This document shows positions 43,269 through 64,000 of a stretch of DNA of 64,000 nucleotides, piece after piece; positions within the stretch are counted from its first letter, which is position 1, and every line of letters starts with the position of its first letter. Source of the stretch: Streptomyces maremycinicus (lineage in GTDB: Bacteria > Actinomycetota > Actinomycetes > Streptomycetales > Streptomycetaceae); assembly GCF_001184025.1 (NCBI RefSeq), contig NZ_BBYG01000020.1, positions 124,001-188,000 of the forward strand, written 5' to 3'. A model generated the notes under the pieces. The model was given only the letters and a program-made list of their open reading frames with translations, was not told the origin of the DNA and made no database searches. The position numbers and the translations under genes were made by a program.

Positions 43269-43595
43269 GTGGACGGACTGGTGGAGTTCAGGACCGACGA
43301 CGGCGCCGTGGTCGCCGTCGAGGCGGTCGGGGAGGGACGGCCGGGTTCCCGGCTGGTGGCCCGTGACGGGACGGTCCAGGCGGCCCGCACCTTCGAGGGC
43401 GCGCTGGAGGGCGTGCGGGCGGCGGCCGCGTCCGCGCTGCGGGTGTTCCGGGACGGGGAGTTGCGGCCCGACGGGGTGGAGATCGAGTTCGGGGTGAAGA
43501 TGTCGGCGGAGACCGGCGCGATCATCGCCAAGGGCACGGCGGAGGGGCACCTCGTCGTGCGGCTGACCTGGTCGCCCTCCTCCCCCACCGCATGA
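43269..43595 (+). CDS. Trypco1 (CU044_2847 family) protein
   Basis: The 108-residue product is a stand-alone trypsin-co-occurring domain 1: VDGLVEFRTDDGAVVAVEAVGEGRPGSRLVARDG, then ARTFEGALEGVRAAAASALRVFRDGELRPDGVEIEFGVKMSAETGAIIAKGTAEGHLVVRLTWSP. These small alpha/beta proteins occur next to trypsin-like proteases in conflict operons and are thought to regulate or present substrate to the protease. The GTG at 43269 gives the usual length; an in-frame ATG at 43218 would add 17 residues not typical of the family. It overlaps the protease gene by 4 bases (ATGA). Confidence 0.85.
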   Translation: MDGLVEFRTDDGAVVAVEAVGEGRPGSRLVARDGTVQAARTFEGALEGVRAAAASALRVFRDGELRPDGVEIEFGVKMSAETGAIIAKGTAEGHLVVRLTWSPSSPTA

Positions 43596-45322: not shown

Positions 45323-45414
45323 TCCGCGCCCGCCGCCCGCCGCCCCTCCCCCACCCCGTCACCGAGCCACGAGCCGCACGAGCCCCACGAGTCACACCAG
45401 AGTTTCGGAGAACC

Positions 45415-46470
45415 ATGCCGCACTGGTCCGTCTACACCGGGAACAGCGAGCCGCACGACGGCATCGACCGGCTGCCCGCGCCGCCGCCCTGGCGGGCGTT
45501 CGACGGCGAACCCGTCGTACCACCGCCCCGGGACGCCGACGACGAGGCGGCCGTCTCCCCCGACCGCGTGCACCGCGCCCGCTCGTACGTCGCCACCCCG
45601 GAGAGCGTCGAACTCGTCAACGCGGCCCTGGTGCTGCGCCGCCCGCTGCTGGTCACCGGCCCGCCCGGCACCGGGAAGTCCTCGCTGGCGTACGCGGTGG
45701 CGCGCGAGCTGGGTCTCGGCCCGGTGCTGCGCTGGAACATCACCAGCCGCTCCACGCTGGCCGACGGCCTCTACCAGTACGACCCGCTGTCCCGGCTGTA
45801 CGCGGCCCGGCAGGCGGCACTGCGCGAACGGGACGCGCGAGACGGACGGGACGGGCGGGACGGGGACGCCGGGGGCGGGGTCGAGGACCATCTGCGCCTC
45901 GGCCCTCTCGGCACCGCCCTGCTGCCCTACGAGCGGCCGCGCGCGCTCCTCGTCGACGAGATCGACAAGAGCGACCTCGACCTGCCCAACGACCTGCTGA
46001 ACGTCCTGGAGGAAGGCCAGTACGACATCCCCGAACTCATGCGCGCGGCCCGGCACTCCGCCGAGGACGTCACCGCCGGGGTGCTGGCCGACGGCTCGGA
46101 CGATCCGGTCGCCGTCACCCGGGGCCGGGTGCGCTGCCGTGCCTTCCCGTTCGTCGTGCTCACCAGCAACGGCGAGCGTGAGTTCCCGCCCGCCTTCCTG
46201 CGCCGCTGTGTCCGGCTGAAGCTGCGCCGCCCCGGCCGCGAGCAGCTCACCGAGATCGTCCGGGCCCACCTCGACACCCCGGCGCGCGAGGCGGAACACC
46301 TCATCGACCGCTTCCTGGCCCGCGCCGCCGACGGCGAACTCGCCACCGACCAGCTGCTGAACGCGCTCTACCTCACCGGAGTCGCCGGACTGGACGCCGA
46401 CTCCCGCGACGCACTGGCGGAGCGACTGATGCCGTATCTCGGCGCCACGGCGGACGGCGATGGCTTCTGA
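45415..46470 (+). CDS. MoxR-type AAA+ ATPase of the conflict operon
   Basis: The 351-residue protein is an AAA+ ATPase of the MoxR/McrB-like branch: Walker A VTGPPGTGKSSLAYAVARELG at residues 80-100, Walker B ALLVDEIDKSDLDLPNDLLNVLEEGQYDIPEL near residue 178, sensor 1 VLTSNGEREFPPAFLRRC with its Arg finger pair. An acidic Gly/Arg/Asp-rich insertion (DARDGRDGRDGDAGGG) follows the first beta strand pair. The ATG follows CGGAGAACC. It should form a ring that remodels or gates the protease/VMAP and vWA partners. It overlaps the next gene by 11 bases. Confidence 0.9.
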   Translation: MPHWSVYTGNSEPHDGIDRLPAPPPWRAFDGEPVVPPPRDADDEAAVSPDRVHRARSYVATPESVELVNAALVLRRPLLVTGPPGTGKSSLAYAVARELGLGPVLRWNITSRSTLADGLYQYDPLSRLYAARQAALRERDARDGRDGRDGDAGGGVEDHLRLGPLGTALLPYERPRALLVDEIDKSDLDLPNDLLNVLEEGQYDIPELMRAARHSAEDVTAGVLADGSDDPVAVTRGRVRCRAFPFVVLTSNGEREFPPAFLRRCVRLKLRRPGREQLTEIVRAHLDTPAREAEHLIDRFLARAADGELATDQLLNALYLTGVAGLDADSRDALAERLMPYLGATADGDGF

Positions 46471-49400
46471 GGAGTCACCGGGGGGTGACCTGTCCGCCCT
46501 GGACCGGCTGACCGCGCTGCTGACGGCCGCGACGGACACCACGCCCACCCCTCGCGAGCTGGCCGAACTGCTGTGGCTCGCGGAGCTGTCGAGCGATCCG
46601 GCGGAGCCGTCACCACCGGACGCGACGGGCGCGCGGGCCGGTCGGGGCACCGGCTACGCGTCCGACGGCCCGCCCGGCGACACGGCGGGCGGCACGCCCG
46701 GGGACGCGACCGACCGCCCGGAGGGCGGTGACCCGCCGGGATCCGCGGCCCCCGCACCGCCTCCCGCACCCGCCGACCGTGTCCCCCTCCACCTGCCCAC
46801 ACCCGCGTCCACGGCCGGTTCCGGTCCGGGTTCCGGGAGCGGGGACGCCGGGGACGCCGGGGACCGTCCCGTCCTCGCGCCCGCGCCTCCGATGCTCCCG
46901 CACCCCCTCGCCCTCCAGCGGGCCCTGCGCCCGCTGAAGCGCACGGTGCCCTCGACGCGCGCCCGCCTCCTCGACGAGCGGGCGACGGCCGACCGCATCG
47001 CGCGGCTGGGCGCCCACCCGGACGTCTGGCTGCCCGTCCTGCGTCCCGCGCGCGAGCGCTGGCTGCGCCTTCTCCTCGTCCACGACACCGGGCCGACGAT
47101 GCCGGTCTGGCGGCCCCTCGTCCGTGAACTGCACACCGTCCTGGCCCAGTCGGGCGTCTTCCGGACGGTCACCCCGTACCCGGCCACGCCCGACGGCGCG
47201 GCCCGGCAGGTGCCCGACCCGGCGGACGGGCGGACGGTCGCCCTGATCGTGAGCGACTGCACGGGCCCGCAGTGGCGCCCCGGCCCGGCGGGCGAGCGCT
47301 GGTACCGGACCCTGCGGCACTGGGCGACCCGGATGCCGCTGGCCGTCGTACAGCCGCTCCCGGAGCACCTGTGGCCCACGACGGCCCTGCCGGCCGAGCC
47401 GGGTCTGCTCTCCTGCGCGAACCGGGCGGCACCGCTCTCCGGGCTCACGTTCACCCCGTACGACCCGGAGGCCGCGCCCCGGCCCGGCGCGGCCCTCCCG
47501 CTCCCCGTCCTGGAACCGGGCGCGCCCTGGCTTGCCAACTGGGCGGCGCTCGTCGCGAGTCCGGGCGGCGCACGCACGCCGGGGGCGGTGGCCTGGCTGC
47601 CACCGGTCCCCGCCCCGCCCGGATCCGCCGGGCAGGAGTCCGCCGACCCGGCCGACCTGCCCGCCCAGGACCTGGTGCTCCGGTTCCGCGCCACCGCCTC
47701 CCGGGAGGCCTTCCGGCTGGCCGGCCACCTGGCCCTGGCCGTTCCCTCGGTTCCCGTGATGCGCCTCGTCCAACGTGCCGTGAACCGCGACCCGCGCCCC
47801 CAGCACCTGGCCGAGGTGATCCTCAGCGGCATGCTGACCACCGTCCCGGGCCCGCCCGGTTCGTACGACTTCCGCCCCGGCGTACGCGACCTGCTGCTGC
47901 GCACCCTGCCGCGCACGACCCGCGGCCGCACCCGCGAACTCCTCGATCGCATCGGCGGGTTGATCGACGAGCAAGCGGGCCGCGTGACGGGCGAGTTCCG
48001 CGCACGGACCGGCCCGCCCGACGCCACCACCGGCGCCTTCGCGACGGTGAGCGCGGAAACGGTGCACAGACTCGGCGGCTCCCCCCGCCTCCCGGAGACC
48101 GACACCCCGACGCCCGACACCCCGGCGCCCGAGACACCGGCGCCCGAGACACCGGAAGCGAGCGGGCCCGAAGCCGGTGCGCCGCAGGCCGGGCCGTCGG
48201 CGGTGGACGGGGCCGAGGCCGGTGCGGCGGAGGGTGTGTCGTCGGGGGGCGGGGTCGAGGCGGGGGCTGTGCTGCTCTTCGAGGTCGACGCCGATCTCGG
48301 GGCCCGTCCCGAGACCCGGATCACGCTCGAGTACGCCGTGCACGAGGTGCTCGCGCGGGGCGATCTCACGCCCCAGCAGTACGAGGTCCACGTCCGCGGG
48401 AACGGGTATGCCGTCCGGATCCGGCCCGAGGCGTATCTGCTGCCGGTGCTCGCCGCCGCCCTGCGCGGGCTCCCCGGTCCGCTCGCCGGGCCGGCCGGAC
48501 AACCGCCTCTGCGGGTGACGTTCCTGGACGGGCCGGAGTCTCCCGCGCCGCCCGCGCCCCCGCGGAGCGCCGCCCCGGTCCTGCTCACCGTCCCCCCGGC
48601 CCTCTACGCGGCGTTCGCCGAGAGCTCCGCCGCCTCGGGACCGCACCGTTTCCGGCCCCTGTTCGGCGACGCCCCGGACGCCCCGCCACCCGCCTGGTAC
48701 TGCCCGCTGCCACCGGAGGAGGGCGCGACGGGAGCGGGAGGCGGCCCGCACGACGCCGGGGCCCCGGTGCGCGGCCCCTTCCTCACCCGCGACCTGCGCC
48801 AGCTGGGCATCCCCGCGCCGGGTCGCACCGCGATCGTGCACACCGGCCCCGACAGCCCGCTCACCCTCCTCGACCCCGTCCTGCCCTACGAGGGCCGCCC
48901 GCCGCGCCCGGCGGCGTACTACGAGGTCGACCTGACCCCGCAGCACGCCGTCGACCGGATCTCCCTGCCCAGCTCGGGGAAGGGCGCCTTCACCGCCGCC
49001 GTCGAGCTGACCTGGCGGGTCGAGGACCCGGTGGCGTTCGTGCGGGCGGAGCCCACGGGCGTGAGCCGGCGGCTGCTGGCGCATCTGCTGGCGACGGGCT
49101 CGCAGATCACCCGCCGCCACTCCGTCCGCCGGGCGGCCGGCGCGCAGCGGGCCGTCAACTCCCAGCTCGGCAGGTGGCCGGTGCCGGGTCTGGCGGTGAC
49201 CTGCTCGGTGACCCTCGCGCCGGACTACGCGCCGCCCCCCGAGGTGCGCCGGCCGGCCGGTACCGCCACGCGCCCGCTCCGGGAGCTGCTCGCCGACGCC
49301 GAGACCGTGCTGTTCGGCTTCGACGGTCCGCTGACCCGGCTGTTCACGGCGACGACCGCCCGTGCGGCCGCCCTCGACCTGCTGGCACTCGTCGCCGAAC

Positions 49401-49972
49401 ACCGCGACCCCGAGGACGCTCTGGCGGGCCGTCCGGTGGGCGACCCGGGCGCCGCGCGCCGGGAGCTGTTCGTCCACCCGCTGGACGTACTGCGGGCCTT
49501 CGCCCAGGACCGGCTAGGCCCGCTGCTGCGGGACCGTCTCGACCGGCTGGAGCTGAGCGCCGTCCCGGACGCGCCCACCACCCACCACTCCGTCGTCCTC
49601 GTGCGCACCCTGCACGACTCCGGGCGCCGGGTCGGGGTGGCCACGGACGTCTGCGCGGCGGCCGTCCACCGCCATCTGGAGAACCACCGGCTTCCGCTGC
49701 CGGCCGGCGTCCACGGCCGGGACGACGACCTCACCCTGCTCACCCCGAACCCGCACCGTCTGCTGCACGCCCTGCGGCCGCTCGGCGCGCCCGCCGCCAC
49801 CGGCGTCCTCATCGGCTCCACGCTCGCCGAACTCGCCGCCGCCCGGGCCGCGGGTCTGCGTTTCCTCGGCCTCGCGCGCAATCCCACCGCCGAGCAGGCG
49901 CTGCTCGGGGCGGGGTGCGACGCGGTGGTCCCCTCGCTCACCCCGGTGCTGGAGGCGGCCCGCACGCTCTGA
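46460..49972 (+). CDS. SAV_2336-type vWA-like multidomain protein with degenerate C-terminal HAD domain
   Basis: The 1170-residue protein starts with an SAV_2336 N-terminal domain (DLSALDRLTALLTAATDTTPTPRELAELLWLAEL). A vWA-like domain follows (WLRLLLVHDTGPTMPVWRPLVRELHTVL near residue 205; its MIDAS is degenerate) and a helical part to about 530. A domain at about 603-693 resembles cyclase-like modules of conflict proteins, with RGNG in place of RGDG. Residues 770-930 look like an SPFH-type beta/alpha repeat (AYYEVDLTPQHAVDRISLPS, VELTWRVEDPVAFVRAEPTGV). Residues 945-1170 are HAD-like, but the nucleophile Asp is Gly953 (TVLFGFDGPLT) and motif IV GDS has become GST (S1120). It overlaps moxR and is probably the sensor/scaffold of the system. 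Confidence 0.82.
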   Translation: MASEESPGGDLSALDRLTALLTAATDTTPTPRELAELLWLAELSSDPAEPSPPDATGARAGRGTGYASDGPPGDTAGGTPGDATDRPEGGDPPGSAAPAPPPAPADRVPLHLPTPASTAGSGPGSGSGDAGDAGDRPVLAPAPPMLPHPLALQRALRPLKRTVPSTRARLLDERATADRIARLGAHPDVWLPVLRPARERWLRLLLVHDTGPTMPVWRPLVRELHTVLAQSGVFRTVTPYPATPDGAARQVPDPADGRTVALIVSDCTGPQWRPGPAGERWYRTLRHWATRMPLAVVQPLPEHLWPTTALPAEPGLLSCANRAAPLSGLTFTPYDPEAAPRPGAALPLPVLEPGAPWLANWAALVASPGGARTPGAVAWLPPVPAPPGSAGQESADPADLPAQDLVLRFRATASREAFRLAGHLALAVPSVPVMRLVQRAVNRDPRPQHLAEVILSGMLTTVPGPPGSYDFRPGVRDLLLRTLPRTTRGRTRELLDRIGGLIDEQAGRVTGEFRARTGPPDATTGAFATVSAETVHRLGGSPRLPETDTPTPDTPAPETPAPETPEASGPEAGAPQAGPSAVDGAEAGAAEGVSSGGGVEAGAVLLFEVDADLGARPETRITLEYAVHEVLARGDLTPQQYEVHVRGNGYAVRIRPEAYLLPVLAAALRGLPGPLAGPAGQPPLRVTFLDGPESPAPPAPPRSAAPVLLTVPPALYAAFAESSAASGPHRFRPLFGDAPDAPPPAWYCPLPPEEGATGAGGGPHDAGAPVRGPFLTRDLRQLGIPAPGRTAIVHTGPDSPLTLLDPVLPYEGRPPRPAAYYEVDLTPQHAVDRISLPSSGKGAFTAAVELTWRVEDPVAFVRAEPTGVSRRLLAHLLATGSQITRRHSVRRAAGAQRAVNSQLGRWPVPGLAVTCSVTLAPDYAPPPEVRRPAGTATRPLRELLADAETVLFGFDGPLTRLFTATTARAAALDLLALVAEHRDPEDALAGRPVGDPGAARRELFVHPLDVLRAFAQDRLGPLLRDRLDRLELSAVPDAPTTHHSVVLVRTLHDSGRRVGVATDVCAAAVHRHLENHRLPLPAGVHGRDDDLTLLTPNPHRLLHALRPLGAPAATGVLIGSTLAELAAARAAGLRFLGLARNPTAEQALLGAGCDAVVPSLTPVLEAARTL

Positions 49973-53128: not shown

Positions 53129-54289
53129 TTGGGGGGTTTCAGCAGGGCCGACCGTGATCGGGCCGTGTGCATCACCGGAATGGGCTGGACCACAGCACTG
53201 GGTGACGGCCTCGACGAGGTGTGGCAGCAGCTGACGGACGGCCGCGTCGGCATCCGGGAGTCGACGGGTGACGGCCGTCCGCCCGCCGCCCTGCTGACGG
53301 ACGACGGCCCGGCCCGGCCTCCGTCCGAGCGCCAGATCGCGCTCGCCGTCACCACCGCGACCGCCGCCCTGCGCGACGCCGGCTGCCCGGCCGGGGACGT
53401 GGACACCCTGGTGCTCGGCAGCAGCCTCGGCCCGCATCTGGACGACGCCGCCGAGATCTCGCCGCACGCCCTGACGTCCGCCGTCGCCACGCGGCTGGGC
53501 GTGCCCGGTTCCGCCTCGGTGAGCACCGCCTGCTCCTCCGGCGCCGACGCCCTCGCGGCCGGCGCGGCCCTGCTCACCGGCGGCGGGGCGGAACGCTGTC
53601 TGTGCGGCGGCATCGACCTGCTCACCGAGGGCAAGCTCCTCGGACACCGGGCGCTCGGCACCCTCGCGGCGTCCGGCACCGTCCGCCCCTTCGACACCGA
53701 CCGCGACGGCACCCTCTTCGGCGAGGGCGCCGGCTTCCTGCTGCTGGAGACCAGGGCGGCGGCCACGGCGCGCGGCGCCCGGATCCTGGGCGAGCTGCGC
53801 GGCTGGGGCGCGTCCAACGACGGCACCGGCCCCACCGCCCCCGACGAGACCGGGGCCGGCGCGGTCCTCGCCGTCCGGCGGGCTCTGGCCAGGGGCGGGG
53901 CCGACACCCGGGACATCGCGGTGATCAACGCCCACGGAACCGGCACCCGCGCCAACGACACCGCGGAGGCGGCCTGCTACGGCACCGTCTTCGGCCCGGA
54001 GTCGGAGGCGCTCGTGTTCGCCACCAAACCGGCCCTCGGCCACACCCTCGGCGCCACCGGCGCCCTGGAGGCCATCGCCCTGCTCCTCGCGCTGCGGCAC
54101 GGCACCGTGCCCCCGCTCCCGCACACCCGCACCGTCATGCCGGAACTGTCCCTGGCACTGGCCACGGACGGCCCCCGGGAGTTCACCGGCTCCCTCGGCA
54201 TCAGCCTCACCCTGGGCTTCGGCGGCTTCAACACCTGTCTGCTGCTGGCGGCCGGCGAACCGCGGACCGTGACCGGGAGTGCCGCGTGA
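53129..54289 (+). CDS. Beta-ketoacyl synthase (ketosynthase)
   Basis: The 386-residue protein is a KAS II-type condensing enzyme with full active site: C135 in VSTACSSGADAL, H269 in NAHGTGTRANDTAEA and H305 in KPALGHTLGATGALE; it ends with the LGFGGFNTCLLL strand. The TTG at 53129 is chosen because GGGGGGA lies 5 bases upstream; a later GTG at 53165 has no site and would remove residues before the first strand. It begins a plus-strand operon (ketosynthase, half-ketosynthase, ligase, thioesterase), each pair overlapping by 4 bases. It would condense an acyl or aminoacyl thioester with a malonyl unit. Confidence 0.9.
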   Translation: MGGFSRADRDRAVCITGMGWTTALGDGLDEVWQQLTDGRVGIRESTGDGRPPAALLTDDGPARPPSERQIALAVTTATAALRDAGCPAGDVDTLVLGSSLGPHLDDAAEISPHALTSAVATRLGVPGSASVSTACSSGADALAAGAALLTGGGAERCLCGGIDLLTEGKLLGHRALGTLAASGTVRPFDTDRDGTLFGEGAGFLLLETRAAATARGARILGELRGWGASNDGTGPTAPDETGAGAVLAVRRALARGGADTRDIAVINAHGTGTRANDTAEAACYGTVFGPESEALVFATKPALGHTLGATGALEAIALLLALRHGTVPPLPHTRTVMPELSLALATDGPREFTGSLGISLTLGFGGFNTCLLLAAGEPRTVTGSAA

Positions 54290-54834
54290 ACCCGGCCCGG
54301 TGGTGCCCCCCGGGAGCCGTGATCACCGGCTCCGCCCTGGTCGAGGCCGACGACCCGGGCACGGTCGGGCGCCGGGTCCCCGGGGTCTACGCCGATCCGG
54401 TGGCCTGGCTGATGGCCGAGGCCGTGGCGGAGGCCCTGGAGAACTGCGGCGACGCCGCGCCGAGCCGCCCCGGGGAGGTCGGGGTCGTCGGGGTGAGCGA
54501 GCGGGCCACCCGCCACACCCTGCGCGCGGTCGCCGAGTCCGTCCCGCGCGGCCGGGTCTCCCCCATGCGGTTCGCGGGCGCAGGTGCGGGCTCGCTCGTC
54601 GGCGTCGTCTGCTCGGCGTTCGGCTTCCACGGGCCGGTGTCGATGCTGCCCATGCCCCTCGCCCCGGCCGTACCGCTCACCAGAGCCCTGTGCGGGGACT
54701 GGCTGCTCGGCGACCCGCCGAGCGCCGCACACGTCCTGGTCGTCACCCACGAAGTCGACGACGAAGGCAAGCACCGGGCGCACTGCCTGGTCGTCAGTGG
54801 GCCGACGCCCACGCGGAGGCCCCGGAGAACATGA
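54286..54834 (+). CDS. Half-length, Cys-less ketosynthase-like protein
   Basis: The 182-residue protein resembles only the N-terminal half of a ketosynthase or chain-length factor (GAVITGSALVEADDPGTVGRRVP, WLMAEAVAEALENCG, VGVVGVSERATRHTLRAVAESVPRGRVSPMRFAGAGAGSLVGVVCSAFGFHGPVSML). Where the nucleophilic Cys should be, the sequence reads SMLPMPLAP, so it cannot hold an acyl chain, and the second half with the two His is missing altogether. It resembles the short beta-ketoacyl synthase N-domain proteins of aryl-polyene clusters. GTGA overlap with the ketosynthase gene suggests a heterodimeric partner. Confidence 0.8.
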   Translation: MNPARWCPPGAVITGSALVEADDPGTVGRRVPGVYADPVAWLMAEAVAEALENCGDAAPSRPGEVGVVGVSERATRHTLRAVAESVPRGRVSPMRFAGAGAGSLVGVVCSAFGFHGPVSMLPMPLAPAVPLTRALCGDWLLGDPPSAAHVLVVTHEVDDEGKHRAHCLVVSGPTPTRRPRRT

Positions 54835-56339
54835 CCTCGCAGAACACCACCCCGCAGAGCACCGCCTCGCAGAACACCGGCCCGCGGAACGCGCCTGTAC
54901 CGAGCACGACGTCAGCGCGCTCGGCGTCCGCGGACCTGGAGTGGACGGCCGATCCGCTTCTCGACCCCGGTGTCGTCGCCGACTTCCTGGGCCGCGTCGA
55001 GGATCTGTCCCCCACCGAGGACGCGGGAGGCCCGGCCGGGCTGCCCGCCCTGGTCGACCGGTTCGCGGCCCTGCCGGCCCCGCCCGGCGCCGTCGTCGTC
55101 ATCGCGCTGCCGAACGGCATCCGGGCACTGCGGTTCTTCTTCGCCGTCGCGCTGGCCGGGCACACCCCGGTGCTGCTCTCCCCGTCCACCCCGGTGTCCC
55201 GGGTCCGCGAGGTGGCCCGCGAGCTGGGCGCCTGCGCTCTGGTCCGGGCGGCGATCCGGCCCGACGCGTACGGCGTCACCGACGTCACCCGCACCGGCGG
55301 CGCCGACCTCGGCCTCTTCACCGGCCGGCCGTATCGGCACCACGGGCCCGGCCACGTCATCCTGATGAGCTCGGGCACCTCCGGCATGGCCACCGGCTGT
55401 CTGCACGGCCTCGACGCCCTGCTGCGCAACGCCCGCCGCCACGGCCGGTCGCTCGGCCAGCGCGCCGCCGACACCACCCTGGTCAGCCTGCCCGTCTACT
55501 ACTCCTACGCGCTGGTCGCCCAGGTGCTCGGCGGCCTCGTGCACGGCTCGCGGCTGGTCATGGCCGGCCCGCCGTTCTCGGTCGCCGACTACCTGGCCAC
55601 GGTCGCCGGCCGGGGCGTCACCCTCTCCTCGCTCACCCCGAGCCTGGTCAAGTCCGTCGTCACCGCGGGCGGCGAACTGCCCGCGCCGCTGCGCACACTG
55701 ACCGTGGGCGGACAGGCGCTCGACCCGTCGTACGTCTCCCGCCTGCTGAAACTCAACCCCGAGCTCGGTCTGTACATCACCTACGGGCTGACCGAGGCCG
55801 GCCCGCGGGTGTCCACCCTCGCCGCCCACCGGGAGCCCCCGCACCGGCACGGTTCGGTGGGGGTGCCGTTGGACGGCGTCGAGGTGCTCACCCGGCCCAC
55901 CGACACCGGCGAGCGCGAACTGCTCGTGCGCTCCGACACCGTCTACCGCAGGCGGGTCGGCGAACCCGCGCCGTCCAAGCGCGGCGACCTGATCGAGCCC
56001 GGCCTGCTGGCCACCGGCGACATCGGGCACGTCGACGACGACGGGTACGTCTACGTGCACGGCCGATCGTCGGACTTCGCGATGGTGCGCGGCGAGAAGG
56101 TGTCGACGGCGACGGTGCGCCGGGCCGCCGAGTCACTGCCCGGGGTGGTCCGTGCCGCGACCAGGATCGCCGTCGTGGACGACGACTCCGCCGTCCTCGA
56201 ACTCGATGTCTTCGTCGACGACGCCGTACCGCCCTCCGAGGCGCAGATGCGCCGGCACCTGCGGTCGCTGCTGACCCGTAACGAGCTGCCGGTGACGGTC
56301 CGGATCCAGCCGCTGCGCGCGGGCGAGCACCACAAGTGA
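54831..56339 (+). CDS. Class I adenylate-forming ligase (AMP-binding)
   Basis: The 502-residue protein is an acyl/aminoacyl-AMP ligase. After an N-terminal Thr/Ser/Gln-rich stretch (about 40 residues) come the P-loop VILMSSGTSGMATG near residue 180, LPVYYSYALVAQVLGGL, LYITYGLTEAGPRVST (aryl/amino-acid pocket and A5 motif) and the A7/A8 motifs ATGDIGHVDDDGYVYVHGRSSDFAMVRGEKVS. The last residue, in AGEHHK, takes the place of the catalytic A10 Lys, so the protein ends right after it. It overlaps its neighbours on both sides. It should load a carboxylate, plausibly a tryptophan-derived one, onto the carrier encoded at 61884. Confidence 0.87.
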   Translation: MTSQNTTPQSTASQNTGPRNAPVPSTTSARSASADLEWTADPLLDPGVVADFLGRVEDLSPTEDAGGPAGLPALVDRFAALPAPPGAVVVIALPNGIRALRFFFAVALAGHTPVLLSPSTPVSRVREVARELGACALVRAAIRPDAYGVTDVTRTGGADLGLFTGRPYRHHGPGHVILMSSGTSGMATGCLHGLDALLRNARRHGRSLGQRAADTTLVSLPVYYSYALVAQVLGGLVHGSRLVMAGPPFSVADYLATVAGRGVTLSSLTPSLVKSVVTAGGELPAPLRTLTVGGQALDPSYVSRLLKLNPELGLYITYGLTEAGPRVSTLAAHREPPHRHGSVGVPLDGVEVLTRPTDTGERELLVRSDTVYRRRVGEPAPSKRGDLIEPGLLATGDIGHVDDDGYVYVHGRSSDFAMVRGEKVSTATVRRAAESLPGVVRAATRIAVVDDDSAVLELDVFVDDAVPPSEAQMRRHLRSLLTRNELPVTVRIQPLRAGEHHK

Positions 56340-57058
56340 CGGGCCCCGAACCGCTCACCCTGTTCTGCGTCCCGCACGCCGGCGGCTCCGCGCGCAGCTT
56401 CGTGCGCTGGCGGCGCGAGCTGCCGGCCGGGCTGTGCGCCGAGCCGCTGGAGATCGCGGGCAAGGGCCTGCGCTCCCGGGAGCCGCGGGCGGCCAGCCTG
56501 CGGGCGGCCGCCACGGACCTCGCCGTCCGGCTGGACCCGCCCGGCCGGTACGCGCTCCTCGGGCACAGCATGGGCGCCCTGCTCGCCTACGAGACGGCGC
56601 TCGCCCTGCACGACCTGGGCCGCCCCGCGCCCGAGTTCGTGGTGGTCGCCGCCGCCCGGCCGCCCCATCTGCTCGGCACCTCCTCGTACGGCCCCCTGCT
56701 CGGCCTGGGCGACGACGCCCTGCTCGACGCGCTCGCGGACAACGGCCGGATCCCGGCGCAGGTACGCCGGTCACCGATGCGGCACCAGTTCGTGCCGGTC
56801 GTCCGCGGCGACCTCGCGCTGCTCGCGGGGCACCGCCCGGACCCCGAGCCGCGGCCCCTGCCGAGCGATCTCGTCACCTGGTACGGCGACGGTGACGCGG
56901 ACACCCCGCCCGGGGTGATGGCCGGCTGGCGGCACTACACCCGGCGCGGCCACGTCCGCGAGGCCTTCGCCGGCGGCCACTTCTTCCTTCACGAACGCTT
57001 CGAGGCGGTGACGGGCCGGCTGCTGGAGCTGGCCGCGCAGCGGCGAGCGGGCCGCTGA
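56336..57058 (+). CDS. Type II thioesterase
   Basis: The 240-residue product is an alpha/beta hydrolase of the TEII/GrsT family: LFCVPHAGGSARSFVRWRRELP, catalytic S78 in LLGHSMGALLAYETAL, and the catalytic His in FAGGHFFLHERFE near the C-terminus. TEII enzymes clear stalled or mis-primed carrier proteins, or release product. GTG lies in a GTGA overlap with the ligase gene. The stop codon sits in the loop of a strong terminator shared with the convergent dioxygenase gene. Confidence 0.9.
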   Translation: MTGPEPLTLFCVPHAGGSARSFVRWRRELPAGLCAEPLEIAGKGLRSREPRAASLRAAATDLAVRLDPPGRYALLGHSMGALLAYETALALHDLGRPAPEFVVVAAARPPHLLGTSSYGPLLGLGDDALLDALADNGRIPAQVRRSPMRHQFVPVVRGDLALLAGHRPDPEPRPLPSDLVTWYGDGDADTPPGVMAGWRHYTRRGHVREAFAGGHFFLHERFEAVTGRLLELAAQRRAGR

Positions 57059-57085
57059 CCGGGACCGGTCGGCGGCCCGCTCGCC
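57042..57085. terminator. Bidirectional terminator between the two arms of the cluster
   Basis: GGCGAGCGGGCCGC (57042-57055) and its perfect 14-bp complement (57072-57085) surround a 16-base loop that contains the thioesterase stop codon. It separates convergent operons. Confidence 0.8.
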
Positions 57086-57140
57086 GGAGGGCGGTGCCTG
57101 ATGGGGTGATGCCGGAGCGACGGCGGTGGCGGTGGCGGTG

Positions 57141-57995
57141 TCAGTGCTGCACCGGGCAGCCGTTCCCGCCGCCGCGGACCGGGGCATCGGTGTCGTGCCG
57201 GGTGCCGAGCAGCCAGTACGCGTCCTCCGCCGCCCGCCACAGCTCCGGGAAGAGCGCCAGCTGCGAGCGTGCCTCCAGCGTCGCCAGGGACCGGCCGCCC
57301 AGGCTCTGCGGCAGCTCGAGCCCGTCGTCCCCCTCCTCGTTGCCCTTGCGCAGCCCGGGCTGGCCGCCCAGCTGCGACCAGACCATGATCAGGTGGTGCT
57401 GCTTCCAGCCGAGGACACTGCCGTCCAGCCGCAGCATCGCCTCGCGCACCAGGGCCAGCGACTGGGACCCGGCCGAGCGCGGACCGTCGTAGCCGTCGTC
57501 CTGCTGGGCGATCACGTCCTGGAGGGACAGCCCGGCGCGTTCCACCGCCTGCTCGTAGGCCTTCCAGACCGGACGGGCCACCCGCCGCAGATTGCGGTAG
57601 CCGGGCGAGTCCAGGCCGGTGGCGTCCTCGGGCAGCGCGTTGCGCATCATCAGCAGGCTGTGCTGCGGCAGGTGGTCGGTGAGCAGCCGCACCGCCTGGA
57701 CGGTCACCTCGCTGAGCCCGGTGGCCCGGTCGAACATGCGGACCGCCTGGTGGTACCGGTCCTCGTCGAGGTGGCCGATCGCGCGGCGCAGCTCGTAGTG
57801 GACCTGCACCCAGGCGTACTCGGTGATGAGGTGGGTGACCTGGAAGAAGCGCTGGTCGGGGTGTTCCGTCTCGCTCTCCGGGACCAGCGCGCCGAGGGCG
57901 TCGGTGAGATGCAGGACGTTCTCGTAGTTGCTGCCCCGGTCGAAGTCGTAGGAGAGCAGGGCGTTGGGTTCGTCCGGGTTCAGCGAGCGCTTCAC
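57141..57995 (-). CDS. Tryptophan 2,3-dioxygenase family heme enzyme
   Basis: The 284-residue protein is an all-helical TDO-family enzyme: LLSYDFDRGSNYENVLHLTDAL, FFQVTHLITEYAWVQVHYELRRA (distal His region), LLMMRNALPEDATGLDSPGYRNLRR in place of the canonical SGFQSxQYR loop, and the proximal heme His region LGWKQHHLIMVWSQLGGQPGLRKG. The altered substrate loop suggests a substrate other than plain tryptophan. It could open the indole to an N-formylkynurenine or, like maremycin MarE, add one oxygen to give an oxindole. GTG lies in a GTGA overlap with the O-methyltransferase gene; beta-methyltryptophan genes are upstream in the same direction. Confidence 0.85.
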   Translation of the reverse strand: MKRSLNPDEPNALLSYDFDRGSNYENVLHLTDALGALVPESETEHPDQRFFQVTHLITEYAWVQVHYELRRAIGHLDEDRYHQAVRMFDRATGLSEVTVQAVRLLTDHLPQHSLLMMRNALPEDATGLDSPGYRNLRRVARPVWKAYEQAVERAGLSLQDVIAQQDDGYDGPRSAGSQSLALVREAMLRLDGSVLGWKQHHLIMVWSQLGGQPGLRKGNEEGDDGLELPQSLGGRSLATLEARSQLALFPELWRAAEDAYWLLGTRHDTDAPVRGGGNGCPVQH

Positions 57996-59035
57996 CGGGT
58001 CTCCTCTTTGGTGTACTCGACCAGCCAGTGGCCGGGCAGCTCGAACTTCCTGGCGTCCGTGAGGGTGAGCCCGGCACCGGCGCCGAGGTCGCGCAGGTCG
58101 TCCATGCTGCGCTCGCGGCCGCCGAGCAGGACCAGCATCAGCAGGTCGGCATAGCTCGCCATCACGGGGTCCTTGCCGCTGTCCAGCAGCCGCTCGACGA
58201 CCACCACGCGCCCGCCGGGGGCGAGCGCCGCCGAGCAGCGGCCGAGGATGCGGGCCGCGTCCCGGTCGCTCCAGTTGTGCAGGGTGTTCGCGATCAGGTA
58301 GACGTCGCCGCCGGTCGGCACCGGCTCGAAGAAGCTGCCCGCGACCAGGGCGCAGCGGTCGGCGACCGGGGCGGTGACCCCGGCGGCCTCGTCGATGACG
58401 CTGGGCAGCTCCAGCAGGGTGCCGCGCAGCGCGGGGTGCTCGGTGAGCAGCCTCAGCAGCAGGGAGCCGTTGCCGCCGCCGACGTCCACGACATGCCCCA
58501 CCGAGGCCCAGTCGTAGATCCGGGCCAGTTCCGGCACCAGCCGGTCCGCGATCCGGGCGATGCCCGTGTTGAAGGACTTCTCGATGTCGGGGTGGGCCTC
58601 CAGGTCCTTCCAGAAGGGCCGCCCGTGCGCCTGCTCGTACACCGGCAGACCGGTGCGTACGGCGTCCATGAGCCGGCCGACGGCCGGTTCGAAGCGGGCC
58701 TCCATGGGCCGGCTGGGGTCCTCGTAGTCCAGCCAGCGGCGCAGATTGCTCGGATGGTCGCCGAGCAGGACCCGGCCCACGTCGGTGAGCTCGTACGTCC
58801 GCTGCCGCGTCGCGGTGTCGGTGGTCTCCTCGAAGAGGCCGAGGAGGCTGACGTAGTGCAGGACGCGGCCGAGGGACTGCTCGTCGGTGCCGGTCTCGGC
58901 GGCCAGGGCGGCCGCGGTCCGGTGCCCCTGCTCGACCAGGTCGGGCAGGCGCAGGGTCGCGGTCACCCGCACGGCGGTGGGGGTGAACCCGGAGCCCAGG
59001 GCGAGGATCGTGTTCAACGGGTCTTGGCGGAACAC
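57992..59035 (-). CDS. SAM-dependent O-methyltransferase (hydroxyindole/TcmO-like)
   Basis: The 347-residue protein has an N-terminal dimerisation winged helix (residues 1-100; LRLPDLVEQGHRTAAALAAETGTDEQSLGRVLHYVSLLGLFEE) and a SAM domain with HVVDVGGGNGSLLLRLLTEHP (motif I), TLLELPSVIDEA and LIANTLHNWSDRDAARIL, where the His of TLHNW is the catalytic base in O-methyltransferases. GTG at 59035 is chosen because GGAGG lies 6 bases upstream; the frame continues further 5' without a site. It likely methylates a phenolic or enolic oxygen introduced after indole oxidation. It precedes and is coupled to the TDO-like gene. Confidence 0.9.
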   Translation of the reverse strand: MFRQDPLNTILALGSGFTPTAVRVTATLRLPDLVEQGHRTAAALAAETGTDEQSLGRVLHYVSLLGLFEETTDTATRQRTYELTDVGRVLLGDHPSNLRRWLDYEDPSRPMEARFEPAVGRLMDAVRTGLPVYEQAHGRPFWKDLEAHPDIEKSFNTGIARIADRLVPELARIYDWASVGHVVDVGGGNGSLLLRLLTEHPALRGTLLELPSVIDEAAGVTAPVADRCALVAGSFFEPVPTGGDVYLIANTLHNWSDRDAARILGRCSAALAPGGRVVVVERLLDSGKDPVMASYADLLMLVLLGGRERSMDDLRDLGAGAGLTLTDARKFELPGHWLVEYTKEETR

Positions 59036-59093
59036 CAAAAGCCTCCAGTCGTTCTCGTTCGGTCGGTCGTTCGCCGGGCGTTCCGGTGCGAAT

Positions 59094-60152
59094 TCAGGGG
59101 TTCTGCTCGATCTCGTCGAGGGCGTCGAGGAACCGTTCGAGGTCCTTTTTCTCGCCGAGCGACGTGCGGAGGTATCCGGGAAATCCGAACAGCCCCGCAT
59201 TGCGAACGAGAATGCCGAAATCGGCGGCGAGACGATCCTGCGCACGGGTGCAGTCCCGGGCCGCGACGGCGACGAAGTTGGTCACGGAGGGCAGATGGGC
59301 GCGGCCCCGGCGGTCCAGCTCGCCGACGAACCAGCGCCGCCGCTCGGCGGTGGAGCGGCGCACCCCGTCGACGAAGTCCGGGTCGCCGAGGGCGGCGATC
59401 GCGGCCGCCTGCGCGAGCCGGTTCACGCTGAAGGGCAGGGCGCGCAGGGTCCCCCGCAGCCCGGCGATCAGGTCGGGCCGGCCGACGGCGTAGCCGACGC
59501 GCAGCGCGGCCAGGCCGTAGGCCTTGGAGAAGGTGCGCAGCGCGACGACCGGCGCGTCCCCGGCGGCCGTCAGGTCGCGGGTCTGCGGGACGTCCGGGCC
59601 GGCGAACTCCATGTACGCCTCGTCGAACACCAGCGGGACCCCGCTGCGCCCGGAGACCTCGACCAGCGCGGCCAGCTCCTGCCGGGTGAGGGCCGCCCCG
59701 CTGGGGTTGTGCGGGTTGCACAGATAGCCGATCCCGTGTCCGGGCAGCCGCGCGGCGAACCCGGCGACGTCGACGGCGGTGCCGTCCGGTGGTACGGCGG
59801 TGCAGCCGCGTCCGAGCAGCTCCAGACAGGCCCGGTAGCCGGGGAACGTCCCGTCGGTGACGAGGCCGGGAAGGTTCCGGTCGCCGAGGGTCAGGGCGGT
59901 GGCCAGGACGAGTTCGTCACTGCCGTTGGCGACGGCGATGTGCTCGGGCCCGACACCCCAGTGCGCGGCGAGCGCCCGCACCAGCTCCTGCCGCTCGGGG
60001 TCCGGGTAGACGTTGACCCGGGCCAGTTCCCGCTCGGCCGCCTGGAGCGCCGCCTTGCTGGCGCCGTGCGGACTCTCGCTCAGATGCAGCCGGATCAGGT
60101 CGTCGGCCCCGGCGATACTCGTGTTGAACGTCTTGCCCGCGGCCGGGGTCAC
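59094..60152 (-). CDS. PLP aminotransferase, MarG-like (beta-methyltryptophan set)
   Basis: The 352-residue fold type I aminotransferase resembles histidinol-phosphate aminotransferases: IRLHLSESPHGAS, VANGSDELVLATALTL, YLCNPHNPSGA, VFDEAYMEFAG and the Schiff-base Lys in RTFSKAYGLAALRVGY. Together with the cupin and C-methyltransferase encoded immediately upstream it forms the set known from maremycin (MarG, MarH, MarI) and streptonigrin: it would convert L-Trp to indolepyruvate and later re-aminate beta-methylindolepyruvate. The GTG overlaps the cupin stop (GTGA). The next gene, 58 bases on, is the O-methyltransferase. Confidence 0.87.
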   Translation of the reverse strand: MTPAAGKTFNTSIAGADDLIRLHLSESPHGASKAALQAAERELARVNVYPDPERQELVRALAAHWGVGPEHIAVANGSDELVLATALTLGDRNLPGLVTDGTFPGYRACLELLGRGCTAVPPDGTAVDVAGFAARLPGHGIGYLCNPHNPSGAALTRQELAALVEVSGRSGVPLVFDEAYMEFAGPDVPQTRDLTAAGDAPVVALRTFSKAYGLAALRVGYAVGRPDLIAGLRGTLRALPFSVNRLAQAAAIAALGDPDFVDGVRRSTAERRRWFVGELDRRGRAHLPSVTNFVAVAARDCTRAQDRLAADFGILVRNAGLFGFPGYLRTSLGEKKDLERFLDALDEIEQNP

Positions 60153-60538
60153 AGCCGGTCCCCCAGGAGGATGCCGAAGCAGTAGCTGCCGACCTCCGCC
60201 TCGAGCGTCAGGAAGCAGTGTTCGCTGCCGGCCGGGATCCGCATGACGGCCGGTGAGAGCAGTTCATGGCGTCTGCCGTCGAGTTGGACCTCGATGCGGG
60301 CGCCGCCCTTGTTCGGGGAGACCAGCAGGTACAGCTCGTCGACGGGGTGGGTGTGCGGCGCGGCGACCGGTTTGCCGACCAGGGTGCTGAGTTCACCGCC
60401 GGCGAGCTGCACGGGCAGGCCGCCGAACATGTCCGCGGTGAGGTAGAAGGGCGCGGGCTGATGGTGCCCGGCCACGGCGAGGGGGATGGGCAGACCCTCC
60501 ACGATCTCGGGGTCGGCGGGACGCCGTTCGCTCGTCAC
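60149..60538 (-). CDS. Small cupin, MarH-like
   Basis: The 129-residue protein is a single-domain cupin with metal ligands H62 and H64 (PHTHPVDELYLL), E68 and H107 (GSEHCFL). In maremycin biosynthesis the cupin MarH works between aminotransferase and methyltransferase and sets the beta-carbon configuration of beta-methyltryptophan. Gene order here (methyltransferase - cupin - aminotransferase, each overlapping by 4 bases) fits that role. Other cupin activities cannot be excluded from sequence alone. Confidence 0.85.
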   Translation of the reverse strand: MTSERRPADPEIVEGLPIPLAVAGHHQPAPFYLTADMFGGLPVQLAGGELSTLVGKPVAAPHTHPVDELYLLVSPNKGGARIEVQLDGRRHELLSPAVMRIPAGSEHCFLTLEAEVGSYCFGILLGDRL

Positions 60539-61608
60539 TGGGCCTCCAGGACGAACAGGTAGGTGTGCGGGGCGCCGAAGGGGACCGTACGGCGCAGGTG
60601 GAGCCCGCCCTCGTGGAAGAGGTTCTCGTACTCCTCGCGCGTGTAGATCGGGACGCCCATCAGCGCGTGGGCGAGCTCGAAGCCGCTGGAGAAGACGGGC
60701 AGCGTGTCCTTCTCGTCGCGCGGCCGGACGGTGGTGTCGGCGAGCAGGAAGGTGTGGGCGCGCGGGAACGCCTTGCGCAGCGCCGGGATGACGTCCGTGC
60801 GGGTGGTGGGGTCGACGAGCAGGTCGTGCAGGAACATGAAGCTCATCGCGACGTCCACCTGGTCGGCGCCCTGGATGCGGCGGCCGTGGAAGAGGACGTC
60901 GAGGACGTCGGCGCAGATCGGCTGGACCCGGTCGGCCAGCTCGTGGCGCTCGACGGTCCCGGCCGCCAGCGCGGTGGCCGAGGCGCTGATGTCCACGCCC
61001 AGACCGCGGGCGCCGGGACGGGACTTGACGAGGCGGCACACTCGCTCGCTGATCCCGCTGCCGAGGTCGGCGATGACGGAGAAGTCGAGCGCGGCGATCT
61101 GCTCGTCGAGCAGGTTGCGCATCAGCGCCATGTCGGCCTGGGCCGAACCGAGCGCCACCATGGCCTCGTCCCGCAACACGTCCTTGCCGAAAGCGCGTTC
61201 CCCGCGCGCGATGGACGCGGCGTTGGCGAAAACCTCGTGGTATCCGCCCACGCCCCAGGTGAAGAACCCTATTTTCCGGCGGAGTTCACTCCAGGCCGGC
61301 GTGGGTGTCACCAGATCGTCGTGGACGTCGAGGTACCCGAAGGCCTCCGCCGCCGACACCAACTGGCGGAAAACCCTTTCATCCAGCTTCCGGCGCCAAC
61401 AGTACTGGGGTACGTCGAGCCGGTCGGCCTCGTCGAACCAGGCGAACAGCCCCAATTGCTCCAGGGCGAAAACGACATGTGTGGAGATGAATCCGTTGAA
61501 GGCGGTGTCGGCATCGAGCGGGGTGTGCGCGGCGCCCTGCCATTCGGCGGGACGGAAAACGCTTTCACCCATCGCTCGGAGGCCGTCACGGGAAAGGGGA
61601 GCTGTCAC
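60535..61608 (-). CDS. Alpha-keto acid beta-C-methyltransferase, MppJ/MarI-like
   Basis: The 357-residue SAM enzyme has the motif I VIADLGSGISERVCRLVKSRPGARGLGVDIS. Its C-terminal half matches the phenylpyruvate C-methyltransferase MppJ block by block: SFMFLHDLLVD (the His-Asp pair that binds iron in MppJ), FPRAHTFLLADTT, LPVFSSGFELAHALMGVPIYT (third ligand His) and EYENLFHEGGLHL. It should methylate the beta carbon of indolepyruvate. Residues 1-110 are the winged-helix dimerisation region. GTG at 61608 follows AAGGAAGG; an ATG 12 codons later is possible. It is the first gene of the minus-strand operon. Confidence 0.87.
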   Translation of the reverse strand: MTAPLSRDGLRAMGESVFRPAEWQGAAHTPLDADTAFNGFISTHVVFALEQLGLFAWFDEADRLDVPQYCWRRKLDERVFRQLVSAAEAFGYLDVHDDLVTPTPAWSELRRKIGFFTWGVGGYHEVFANAASIARGERAFGKDVLRDEAMVALGSAQADMALMRNLLDEQIAALDFSVIADLGSGISERVCRLVKSRPGARGLGVDISASATALAAGTVERHELADRVQPICADVLDVLFHGRRIQGADQVDVAMSFMFLHDLLVDPTTRTDVIPALRKAFPRAHTFLLADTTVRPRDEKDTLPVFSSGFELAHALMGVPIYTREEYENLFHEGGLHLRRTVPFGAPHTYLFVLEAQ

Positions 61609-61883
61609 GGGAAGTGCCTTCCTTGTTTCGGTCGAATGCCGAGATCCGGTCCGGGCCGACGCCGGGCCGACATCGCGCCCGCATTGCCGCGCCGCCCCGA
61701 GAGGACATCGAGCCGGCCTATGGCCGACCCGGACTCCGCGTAGACTCGGCTCCGCGTGGACTCGGCATGGATCCGGGCATGGTGAAGGGCAGGGACGCGG
61801 TACGGAGGCGGCGTGGAGTCGACGTCAGGTCGACGTCGGTCCGGAACCGGTCCGATGCCGGCGCCCGACGCGGCGGGGACCGG

Positions 61884-62273
61884 TTACAGGCGGGGCGAGG
61901 TGGCGGCGATACGCTCCACCGCCACCGCCAGTTCGCGCACCGTGGGGTGGTCGAAGAACAACCGGTTGGGCAACCGGACGCCGAACCGCCGGCGCAGCCG
62001 CATCAGCACCTGCGTGGCTTTCAGGGAGTGACCGCCCGCCTCGAGAAAGGGGGTGTCGTCATCGAAGTCGTCGTGCCCGAGCACCTCGACCCACGCGGCT
62101 CTGACCTGGTCCTCCATGGCGGGCCCAGACGCCGTCACGGGTGGCCCGGAAGCCGGTCCGGAAAGCGGTCCGGAGGCCCGTCTCGCAGCCGGCCCGGAAG
62201 CCGGTCCGGAAGACAGCCCGGATGACGGTCCGGAATACGGATCCGGACGTGTTTTCACGCCGTCGTCGCTCAA
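61884..62273 (-). CDS. Stand-alone peptidyl carrier protein with repetitive N-terminus
   Basis: The 129-residue product has a carrier domain in its last 75 residues: MEDQVRAAWVEVLGHDDFDDDTPFLEAGGHSLKATQVLMRLRRRFGVRLPNRLFFDHPTVRELA, with phosphopantetheine site S83 in GGHSL, typical of NRPS-type carriers rather than FAS-type. The first 52 residues are a disordered Ser/Gly/Pro linker (SGPASGP repeats). The TTG at 62273 is chosen because GGGGGA lies 6 bases before; an internal ATG at codon 53 would encode a bare carrier. It would hold the amino-acid unit activated by the ligase at 54831. It lies 275 bases upstream of the methyltransferase gene. Confidence 0.87.
   Translation of the reverse strand: MSDDGVKTRPDPYSGPSSGLSSGPASGPAARRASGPLSGPASGPPVTASGPAMEDQVRAAWVEVLGHDDFDDDTPFLEAGGHSLKATQVLMRLRRRFGVRLPNRLFFDHPTVRELAVAVERIAATSPRL
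62130..62250. repeat. Short GTCCGGA-type repeats in the carrier-protein linker
   Basis: About ten degenerate units of 12 bases built on G(G/C)(T/C)CCGGAA(G/A) encode the SGP-rich linker of the carrier protein on the minus strand. The array has the look of recent expansion, like the two other minisatellites in this window. Confidence 0.7.
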
Positions 62274-62338
62274 AAGAATTCCCCCGTGTCATGACGGATC
62301 ACGGCCGATCGCCCCGGATGCGGGGCAGCAGTGGAACG

Positions 62339-62358
62339 GCCACGCCCATGGGCGTGGC
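62339..62358. promoter_or_regulatory. Perfect 20-bp palindrome in the carrier-gene leader
   Basis: GCCACGCCCATGGGCGTGGC is fully self-complementary. It lies about 66 bases upstream of the TTG start of the carrier gene and downstream of its predicted promoter, so it can act as an operator or as an RNA hairpin in the 5' leader. Confidence 0.6.
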
Positions 62359-62402
62359 TGGGTGAAGCTTCAATTGTTTTTCCCCCGTAAAACGGACGCT
62401 CC

Positions 62403-62423
62403 ACCGGTATGTCAAACCGGTTC
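62403..62423 (-). promoter_or_regulatory. Operator-like ACCGGT pair enclosing a -35 box
   Basis: Two ACCGGT boxes (62403-62408 and 62416-62421) enclose a perfect minus-strand -35 hexamer TTGACA (62410-62415). A weak -10 such as TTTTAC lies 17 bases on (62387-62392). A bound regulator would cover the -35 of the carrier-gene promoter. Confidence 0.55.
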
Positions 62424-62744
62424 GGTCCCTGAGGTGATTGCTCACCCTGGCGGCAGATTGCCGATATCGGAGAGTAGGCAGCGGCCATCGAGCCAGTCAA
62501 GGGGCGAATGTCGGCCACCCTCCGCCGGATAACCCCTGGCCAACGCTTCGGCTCCGCCCGCGATTCCGCCCCGAGATTCGCGTGCATCGGCCATCCGGTT
62601 GGCCGAAAAGCGGGTTGACGGCCGAAACTCGGCACCTCTACCGTCGACGAGTCGATTGTGAACGCAGTATTTCAAGGGTTGCGTTCGAGTCCGACATCAA
62701 CCGGCGTGACAGGGGGAATGATGTACGCCGCAACGGGGGAGGAA

Positions 62745-62766
62745 GAACCGGTCGACCAACCGGTTC
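62745..62766. promoter_or_regulatory. Perfect inverted repeat GAACCGGT-N6-ACCGGTTC
   Basis: Two 8-bp arms with a 6-base spacer stand about 210 bases before the reductase start. The arms share ACCGGTTC with the element at 62416-62423, so both could be sites of the same dimeric regulator, whose gene is not in the window. Confidence 0.6.
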
Positions 62767-62975
62767 CTTATTCCGTCAGAGTCCTTTTCGAACTCCGATG
62801 AACCTTGGATCGGTGACCGCCTGACGCGCGGTCGCCTGATCCCTCAAAAGGCCCAGGCCGGCCTTTCCATCATTCACACGGTGTTGTCTTCCGCTGCCCG
62901 CCGCACGGCGCACACCTGTGCCCTCACCGGAGCACGGGCAGCGGTATTCGTCACGAGATGCATCAGGGAAGCGCG

Positions 62976-64000
62976 TTGAGGCATGCGATTCTGGGCGCCG
63001 GGGGAGTCGGGCTCGCCCTCGGAGCGGCGCTGGCCCGTGCGGGCCACGAGGTCGTGCTGGTGATGCGGGAGTCCTCACGGGCCCGCTACCCCGGCGTGAT
63101 CGACGTCCACAGCAAACTGCACGGCGACCTCACCGTCGAGGCACGCGCGGTGGAGCGGCTCGACGAGCCGGTCGACGTCCTGTGGGTGACGGTCAAGGCG
63201 CCCGCGCTGCACGCCGCGCTGGCCAGGGTCGCCCCACGGCTGACCCCGGGCTCGGTCGTCCCCCTGCTCAACGGACTCGACCATCCGCGAGCGCTGCGGG
63301 CCAGGTTCGGGCCCCGCCAGCTCGTCGGTGCGATCCTCATCGAGGCGGAACGCACCGCGCCCGGCCGGGTCACCTGGAACTCCCTGTACGCCGAGATCAG
63401 CCTCGCGGCCACCACGGCGGGCACGGGCGCGGGCGCGGAATCCGAGACCGAGGCGGGTCCCGAGGCCGGAGGCGGGGCCGGAGAGGGAGCCGGGGCCGAG
63501 GCAGCAGCCGGGCAACGGCGGCTCGCGCGGCTTGCCGAGCTTCTCGCCGACGCCGGCCTCGGCTGCACCCCGGAACGGGATCCGGCGAGCGTCCTGTGGC
63601 GCAAGCTGGTCCTCCTGCTGCCCTTGGCGCTGGCCACCACCGCGGCCGACGGCCCCCTCGGCATCGTCCGCCGACGGCCCGAGCTGGCCGGCCTGCTGCG
63701 CGACGCCGCCCGGGAGGCCTGCGCCGTCGCCGCGGCGGACACCGTCGCGGTCGACGACCGGAATCTTCTGCACACCCTGGACACCCTGCCCGGCCGGACC
63801 GACACCTCCCTGCACCGGGACGTCACCGCCGGGGTCAGGCCGACCGAACTCGCCGCGCTCACCGAACCGGTGCTGCGCCGCGCCCGCGACCACCACGTGG
63901 CCGTACCCGCGCTGGCCGAACTGGCACGCAGGGCCGCCGAACAGGAGCGGCGGGCGGAGCTTCCCGCACCGCACCGATCCACCTATCGCAAGGGAGAAAC
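62976..64000 (+). CDS. Ketopantoate reductase family oxidoreductase (3' end outside window)
   Basis: The frame is open to the window edge; 341 residues are seen. MRHAILGAGGVGLALGAALARAGHEVVLVMRE is the NADPH-binding Rossmann start of the PanE/ApbA family, followed by VDVLWVTVKAPALHAAL, the PLLNGLDHPRALR motif and, after an Ala/Glu/Gly-rich insertion (about residues 150-180), the helical C-terminal domain with WRKLVLLLPLALATTAADGPLG. The TTG at 62976 is preferred (AGGGA 8 bases before, giving the normal family start); an ATG at 62958 is the alternative. Members reduce 2-keto acids such as ketopantoate; here a cluster-specific keto substrate is plausible. Confidence 0.82.
   Translation, partial: MRHAILGAGGVGLALGAALARAGHEVVLVMRESSRARYPGVIDVHSKLHGDLTVEARAVERLDEPVDVLWVTVKAPALHAALARVAPRLTPGSVVPLLNGLDHPRALRARFGPRQLVGAILIEAERTAPGRVTWNSLYAEISLAATTAGTGAGAESETEAGPEAGGGAGEGAGAEAAAGQRRLARLAELLADAGLGCTPERDPASVLWRKLVLLLPLALATTAADGPLGIVRRRPELAGLLRDAAREACAVAAADTVAVDDRNLLHTLDTLPGRTDTSLHRDVTAGVRPTELAALTEPVLRRARDHHVAVPALAELARRAAEQERRAELPAPHRSTYRKGE

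Follow-up and report, generated by a model that had tools for sequence, protein, structure and literature searches.

Genes at the right end of a Streptomyces window are almost certainly the left part of the described maremycin/FR900452 (mar) cluster

The left two thirds of a 17-gene cluster occupy the right end of the window, i.e. the whole 64,000-nucleotide stretch of Streptomyces maremycinicus DNA that was analysed. By gene calling on the window and on the DNA beyond it, the cluster spans 53165-73873 in window-equivalent coordinates; its far end corresponds to position 197873 of contig C20, of which the window covers 124001-188000. The 11th gene runs across the window end, and the remainder of the cluster, including the NRPS, a ketosynthase (KS) and a putative S-methylating adenylation enzyme, lies past base 64000. 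All the genes named in an earlier note on this DNA were found where that note had placed them, and show coding-type codon usage as well as family matches. The TTG start of the ketosynthase at 53129 is in frame with 53165, and the 4-base overlaps described between the aminotransferase, cupin and C-methyltransferase genes are present. For marK, the ATG at 62958 was preferred to a start at 63063, as the protein read from it exceeds the cut-off of the ketopantoate reductase model. The genes are as follows.

53165..54289, + strand: marA, AmcF-type ketosynthase (KS of the KS-CYF pair); NF058662 AmcF, 461 bits (cut-off 325); motifs TACSSG, HGTGT and GHT (Cys/His/His)
54286..54834, + strand: marB, AmcG-type cyclization factor; NF058659 AmcG, 159 bits (cut-off 80)
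54831..56339, + strand: marC, AmcH-type 2-oxoglutaryl-ACP ligase; NF058661 AmcH, 595 bits (cut-off 370)
56336..57058, + strand: marD, type II thioesterase; Pfam PF00975, 3e-28; GHSMG motif
57141..57995, - strand: marE, haem enzyme predicted to convert beta-methyltryptophan to the 2-oxindole; PDB 9CA3, E 9e-192
57992..59035, - strand: marF, O-methyltransferase-fold methyltransferase, probably an indole N-methyltransferase; Pfam PF00891, 9e-39; N-methyl role suggested by the product structure
59094..60152, - strand: marG, aminotransferase of the beta-methyltryptophan cassette; Pfam PF00155, 1e-47; place within marG-H-I
60149..60538, - strand: marH, cupin of the cassette; identical to PDB 6J4B, residues 6-129
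60535..61572, - strand: marI, C-methyltransferase of the cassette; best PDB relative MppJ 4KIB, E 6e-29
61884..62117, - strand: marJ, stand-alone PCP, probable S-methylcysteine carrier; Pfam PF00550, 5e-20; GGHSL site
62958..64000, continuing to 64007 past the window end, + strand: marK, ketopantoate-reductase-like oxidoreductase; TIGR00745, 147 bits (cut-off 141), from the ATG at 62958
64004-73873 (window-equivalent), beyond the window: marL (AmcB-type ACP), marM (C-A-PCP NRPS, polyketide-type tail), marN (zinc alcohol dehydrogenase), marO (ketosynthase), marP (SnoaL-like protein) and marQ (methyltransferase-interrupted A domain)

In gene order, the TDO-like gene stands 5th, the beta-methyltryptophan cassette 7th to 9th, the NRPS 13th and the interrupted A domain 17th, which in the published mar cluster (PMC4611700, PMC5454204, PMC8949500) are the places of E, G-H-I, M and Q. 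The other letters used here were given by gene order, without an annotated B9173 mar copy for comparison. The locus contains the marG-H-I cassette, the 2-oxindole-forming type of MarE, the MarQ architecture, and seventeen genes with MarM as the 13th. Komaki et al. (PMC4611700) have reported that TP-A0890, an FR-900452 producer, carries marA-Q orthologues as orf152-168 on one scaffold, which are more than 98% identical and were assigned to FR-900452. In the present contig, marA is about the 148th gene by a crude count, and the window probably comes from this strain. Gene content (17 genes) and gene order agree with those of the mar cluster of Streptomyces sp. B9173/TP-A0890, insofar as the published letters permit a comparison, and no difference of substance was found. 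Judged by the published work together with sequence identity and architecture, the genes in the window are almost certainly the left part of the described Streptomyces cluster marA-Q for the sulfur-containing indole alkaloids maremycin and FR900452. The mar cluster here is real but already known.

The complete set of 17 also occurs in OV320, S. aurantiogriseus, S. bobili, S. actinomycinicus, S. phaeoluteigriseus (there on separate contigs), Allokutzneria sp. A3M-2-11, and Streptomyces G164 and G370. As they are kept together in Allokutzneria and the other actinobacterial genomes, the 17 genes form one unit rather than a chance neighbourhood. In Allokutzneria the marA-D arm is inverted and no flanking gene matched, and these different flanks support marA and marQ as the limits of the cluster. 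A relative of MarE at E 1e-20 or better is encoded by 11 of the 393 genomes of the genus, with an identity of 72-100% in the window's own genome, G346, G359, G370 and G164, and of 43-50% in the six others; judging from contig coordinates, G346 and G359 probably correspond to the genomes of S. phaeoluteigriseus and S. bobili listed above.

MarE is identical to the crystallised MarE (PDB 9CA3) at 282 of 284 residues, one of the two differences being the engineered C280S, and it retains H55, R118, the DATG loop, the SLGGR loop and C280. The reaction assigned to it is based on published work and this identity. The cupin is identical over 124 of 124 residues to PDB 6J4B, which we take to be MarH, although the title of the record is only 'Cupin superfamily protein'; it carries the HTH..E motif at residue 62, and among solved cupins 7EQK is a further match (E 1e-67). 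The nearest solved relative of the C-methyltransferase MarI is MppJ. A set of marG-H-I homologues has been reported in the streptonigrin cluster; the aminotransferase, cupin and C-methyltransferase are common to the streptonigrin and MppJ-type cassettes, whose downstream enzymes and product differ from those of mar. MarF is probably an indole N-methyltransferase, as the product contains an N-methyl-2-oxindole, and indole methylation is reportedly a published step of the mar pathway.

On the opposite arm, MarA, MarB and MarC, together with MarL, exceed the curated NCBIfam cut-offs for AmcF, AmcG, AmcH and AmcB, respectively, i.e. the locus has the amcB, amcF, amcG and amcH homologues of a minimal-type AmcG (KS-CYF) cluster. 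In the amc system (PMC10698177), the carrier is charged with 2-oxoglutarate by the ligase, and AmcF and AmcG together extend it by one malonyl unit and form the five-membered ring. By family, MarA, MarB and MarC with the AmcB-type MarL are predicted to build a cyclopentenone from 2-oxoglutarate and malonate. Hibi et al. (2023) listed B9173 as a minimal-type cluster and an FR900452 producer, and termed its pathway unknown. The AmcB, AmcF, AmcG and AmcH of the cispentacin part (amcB-H) of the amipurimycin cluster have their counterparts in MarL, MarA, MarB and MarC, whereas mar has no recognised homologue of amcC, amcD or amcE, and its ring goes to a peptide instead of a free amino acid. No match to AmcC, AmcD or AmcE equivalog models was found among the mar genes scanned with NCBIfam (the presence of such models in NCBIfam being unconfirmed), nor was there a hotdog-fold (AmcE-like) Pfam match among the 17 mar genes. 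Because no AmcE-type decarboxylase was recognised, the scheme given below leaves the loss of the extra carboxyl without explanation.

The last gene encodes MarQ, in which Pfam places a methyltransferase at residues 197-294 within the A domain; its placement between a2 and a3 is taken from the Pfam boundaries only. This interrupted-A architecture agrees with the published one, and the activities attributed to MarQ derive from published work and the architecture. The free PCP MarJ most likely carries S-methylcysteine loaded by this A-MT-A enzyme, and the tryptophan-derived residue probably goes to the C-A-PCP enzyme MarM. The tail of MarM matches the KS-AT linkers of polyketide synthases and, weakly, AT domains. 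In this AT remnant the GHSxG motif reads G-x-G-T/S-G, the usual serine being absent in all seven mar clusters aligned; therefore, malonyl loading by the domain is not expected. The ketosynthase MarO is intact, with its Cys/His/His motifs kept.

A reduced analogue of FR900452 (PMC6724048) contains an N-methyl-2-oxindole and an oxopiperazine that bears a methylthiomethyl group; its cyclopentanone takes the place of the cyclopentenone in FR900452. These parts of the product, i.e. the N-methyl-oxindole, the S-methyl group, the oxopiperazine and the cyclopentanone or cyclopentenone, account for each group of enzymes in the cluster. From the published shifts and the structure of FR900452, the ring is presumably joined at the former carboxyl carbon of tryptophan. 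In the pathway that we propose, tryptophan would be converted to beta-methyltryptophan by MarG, MarH and MarI, and then to the 2-oxindole by MarE, with N-methylation probably by MarF. MarQ would activate cysteine, methylate its sulfur and load it onto MarJ, and MarM would couple the S-methylcysteine to the tryptophan-derived residue; a dipeptide leaving at MarM would close to the diketopiperazine maremycin. In parallel, MarC would put 2-oxoglutarate on the carrier MarL, and MarA and MarB would add the malonyl unit and close the cyclopentenone. MarO would then link the dipeptidyl thioester to the cyclopentenone unit, and the piperazinone FR900452 would be released when the amine of cysteine attacks the newly formed ketone. 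The assignments of MarF, MarJ and MarO, as well as the release steps, are those that we infer.

As for the joining step, we tentatively propose, giving it somewhat less than an even chance, that the carbon nucleophile used by MarO against the dipeptidyl thioester is the cyclopentenone bound to MarL, a cyclic beta-keto unit from the KS-CYF pair, and not malonyl. The proposal is made because the AT remnant of MarM lacks its serine, and because related clusters without amc-type genes have the C-A-PCP fused to a KS, in one case then with an AT that passes the Pfam cut-off. For this step, a specific regiochemistry on the ring was considered but dropped, as the data do not fix the attacking ring carbon.

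The earlier note had read the locus as a new pathway, in which beta-methyltryptophan is oxidised, O-methylated, loaded on the free PCP and extended by one ketide unit, and knew of no described pathway with this set. Every gene family that it named is indeed present: the beta-methyltryptophan cassette is of the MarG-H-I type by its 6J4B-identical cupin, the nearness of MarI to MppJ and the adjacent aminotransferase, the TDO-like gene encodes a MarE-type oxygenase by its identity to 9CA3, and a hybrid with a carbon-carbon extension was right as a general reading. However, the identity of MarE and MarH with the mar proteins, in a cluster that is the described marA-Q with a known product, leaves next to no probability for a new pathway. 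As members of the AmcF/G/H families, the KS pair and the ligase would make a cyclopentenone from 2-oxoglutarate rather than extend tryptophan; the supposed half-ketosynthase is a real gene (54286-54834) but a member of the AmcG cyclization-factor family, not a broken ketosynthase. Similarly, the stand-alone PCP (61884-62117, GGHSL) exists, but its cargo is most likely S-methylcysteine instead of a tryptophan derivative, and MarF most likely methylates the indole nitrogen, not an oxygen. The NRPS module and the A-MT-A enzyme, which also speak against the new pathway, lie beyond the window and were outside the view of that note.

It could also be imagined that this is a close mar-type cluster with an end product other than FR900452, e.g. 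only maremycins, through gene decay in this strain; maremycins and FR900452 do come from the same strain, and the output can vary between strains. We consider this very improbable, given that 17 of 17 frames are open, that MarA, MarD, MarE, MarH, MarJ, MarL, MarM (C domain and PCP) and MarO all retain the active-site motifs checked, and that FR-900452 production has been reported for TP-A0890 (PMC4611700). As a find, the mar cluster identified here carries small weight, its genes and products being already published; through the gene set, the marA-marQ limits and the dead AT remnant, the FR900452 step that Hibi et al. (2023) termed unknown becomes directly testable.

Related clusters were also observed. 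Four Streptomyces genomes (L042:8253-18985, and L040, L041 and L043) have a small one with no AmcF/G/H-type set, in which a protein about 50% identical to MarE is accompanied by a free PCP, a protein combining C-A-PCP with a KS, and a MarI-like methyltransferase; in L042 there is additionally an MFS transporter and another protein of the TDO family. We know of no product for these four. Another MarE-containing cluster (L044:1170-19778) has a MarQ-like enzyme (42%) and a C-A-PCP-KS, followed by an AT-C-PCP-reductase protein. Elsewhere in the window, genes for a Trypco1 protein, a trypsin-like protease with a VMAP-C domain and a MoxR-like AAA ATPase stand in a row (43269-46470), which is the make-up of predicted vWA-MoxR conflict systems, the PADLOC matches being weak. 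Adjoining the protease and AAA genes, 46460-49972 encodes a protein of 1170 aa for which a marginal match to HAD hydrolases was the only one; OV320 and S. aurantiogriseus likewise have this gene next to their mar clusters.
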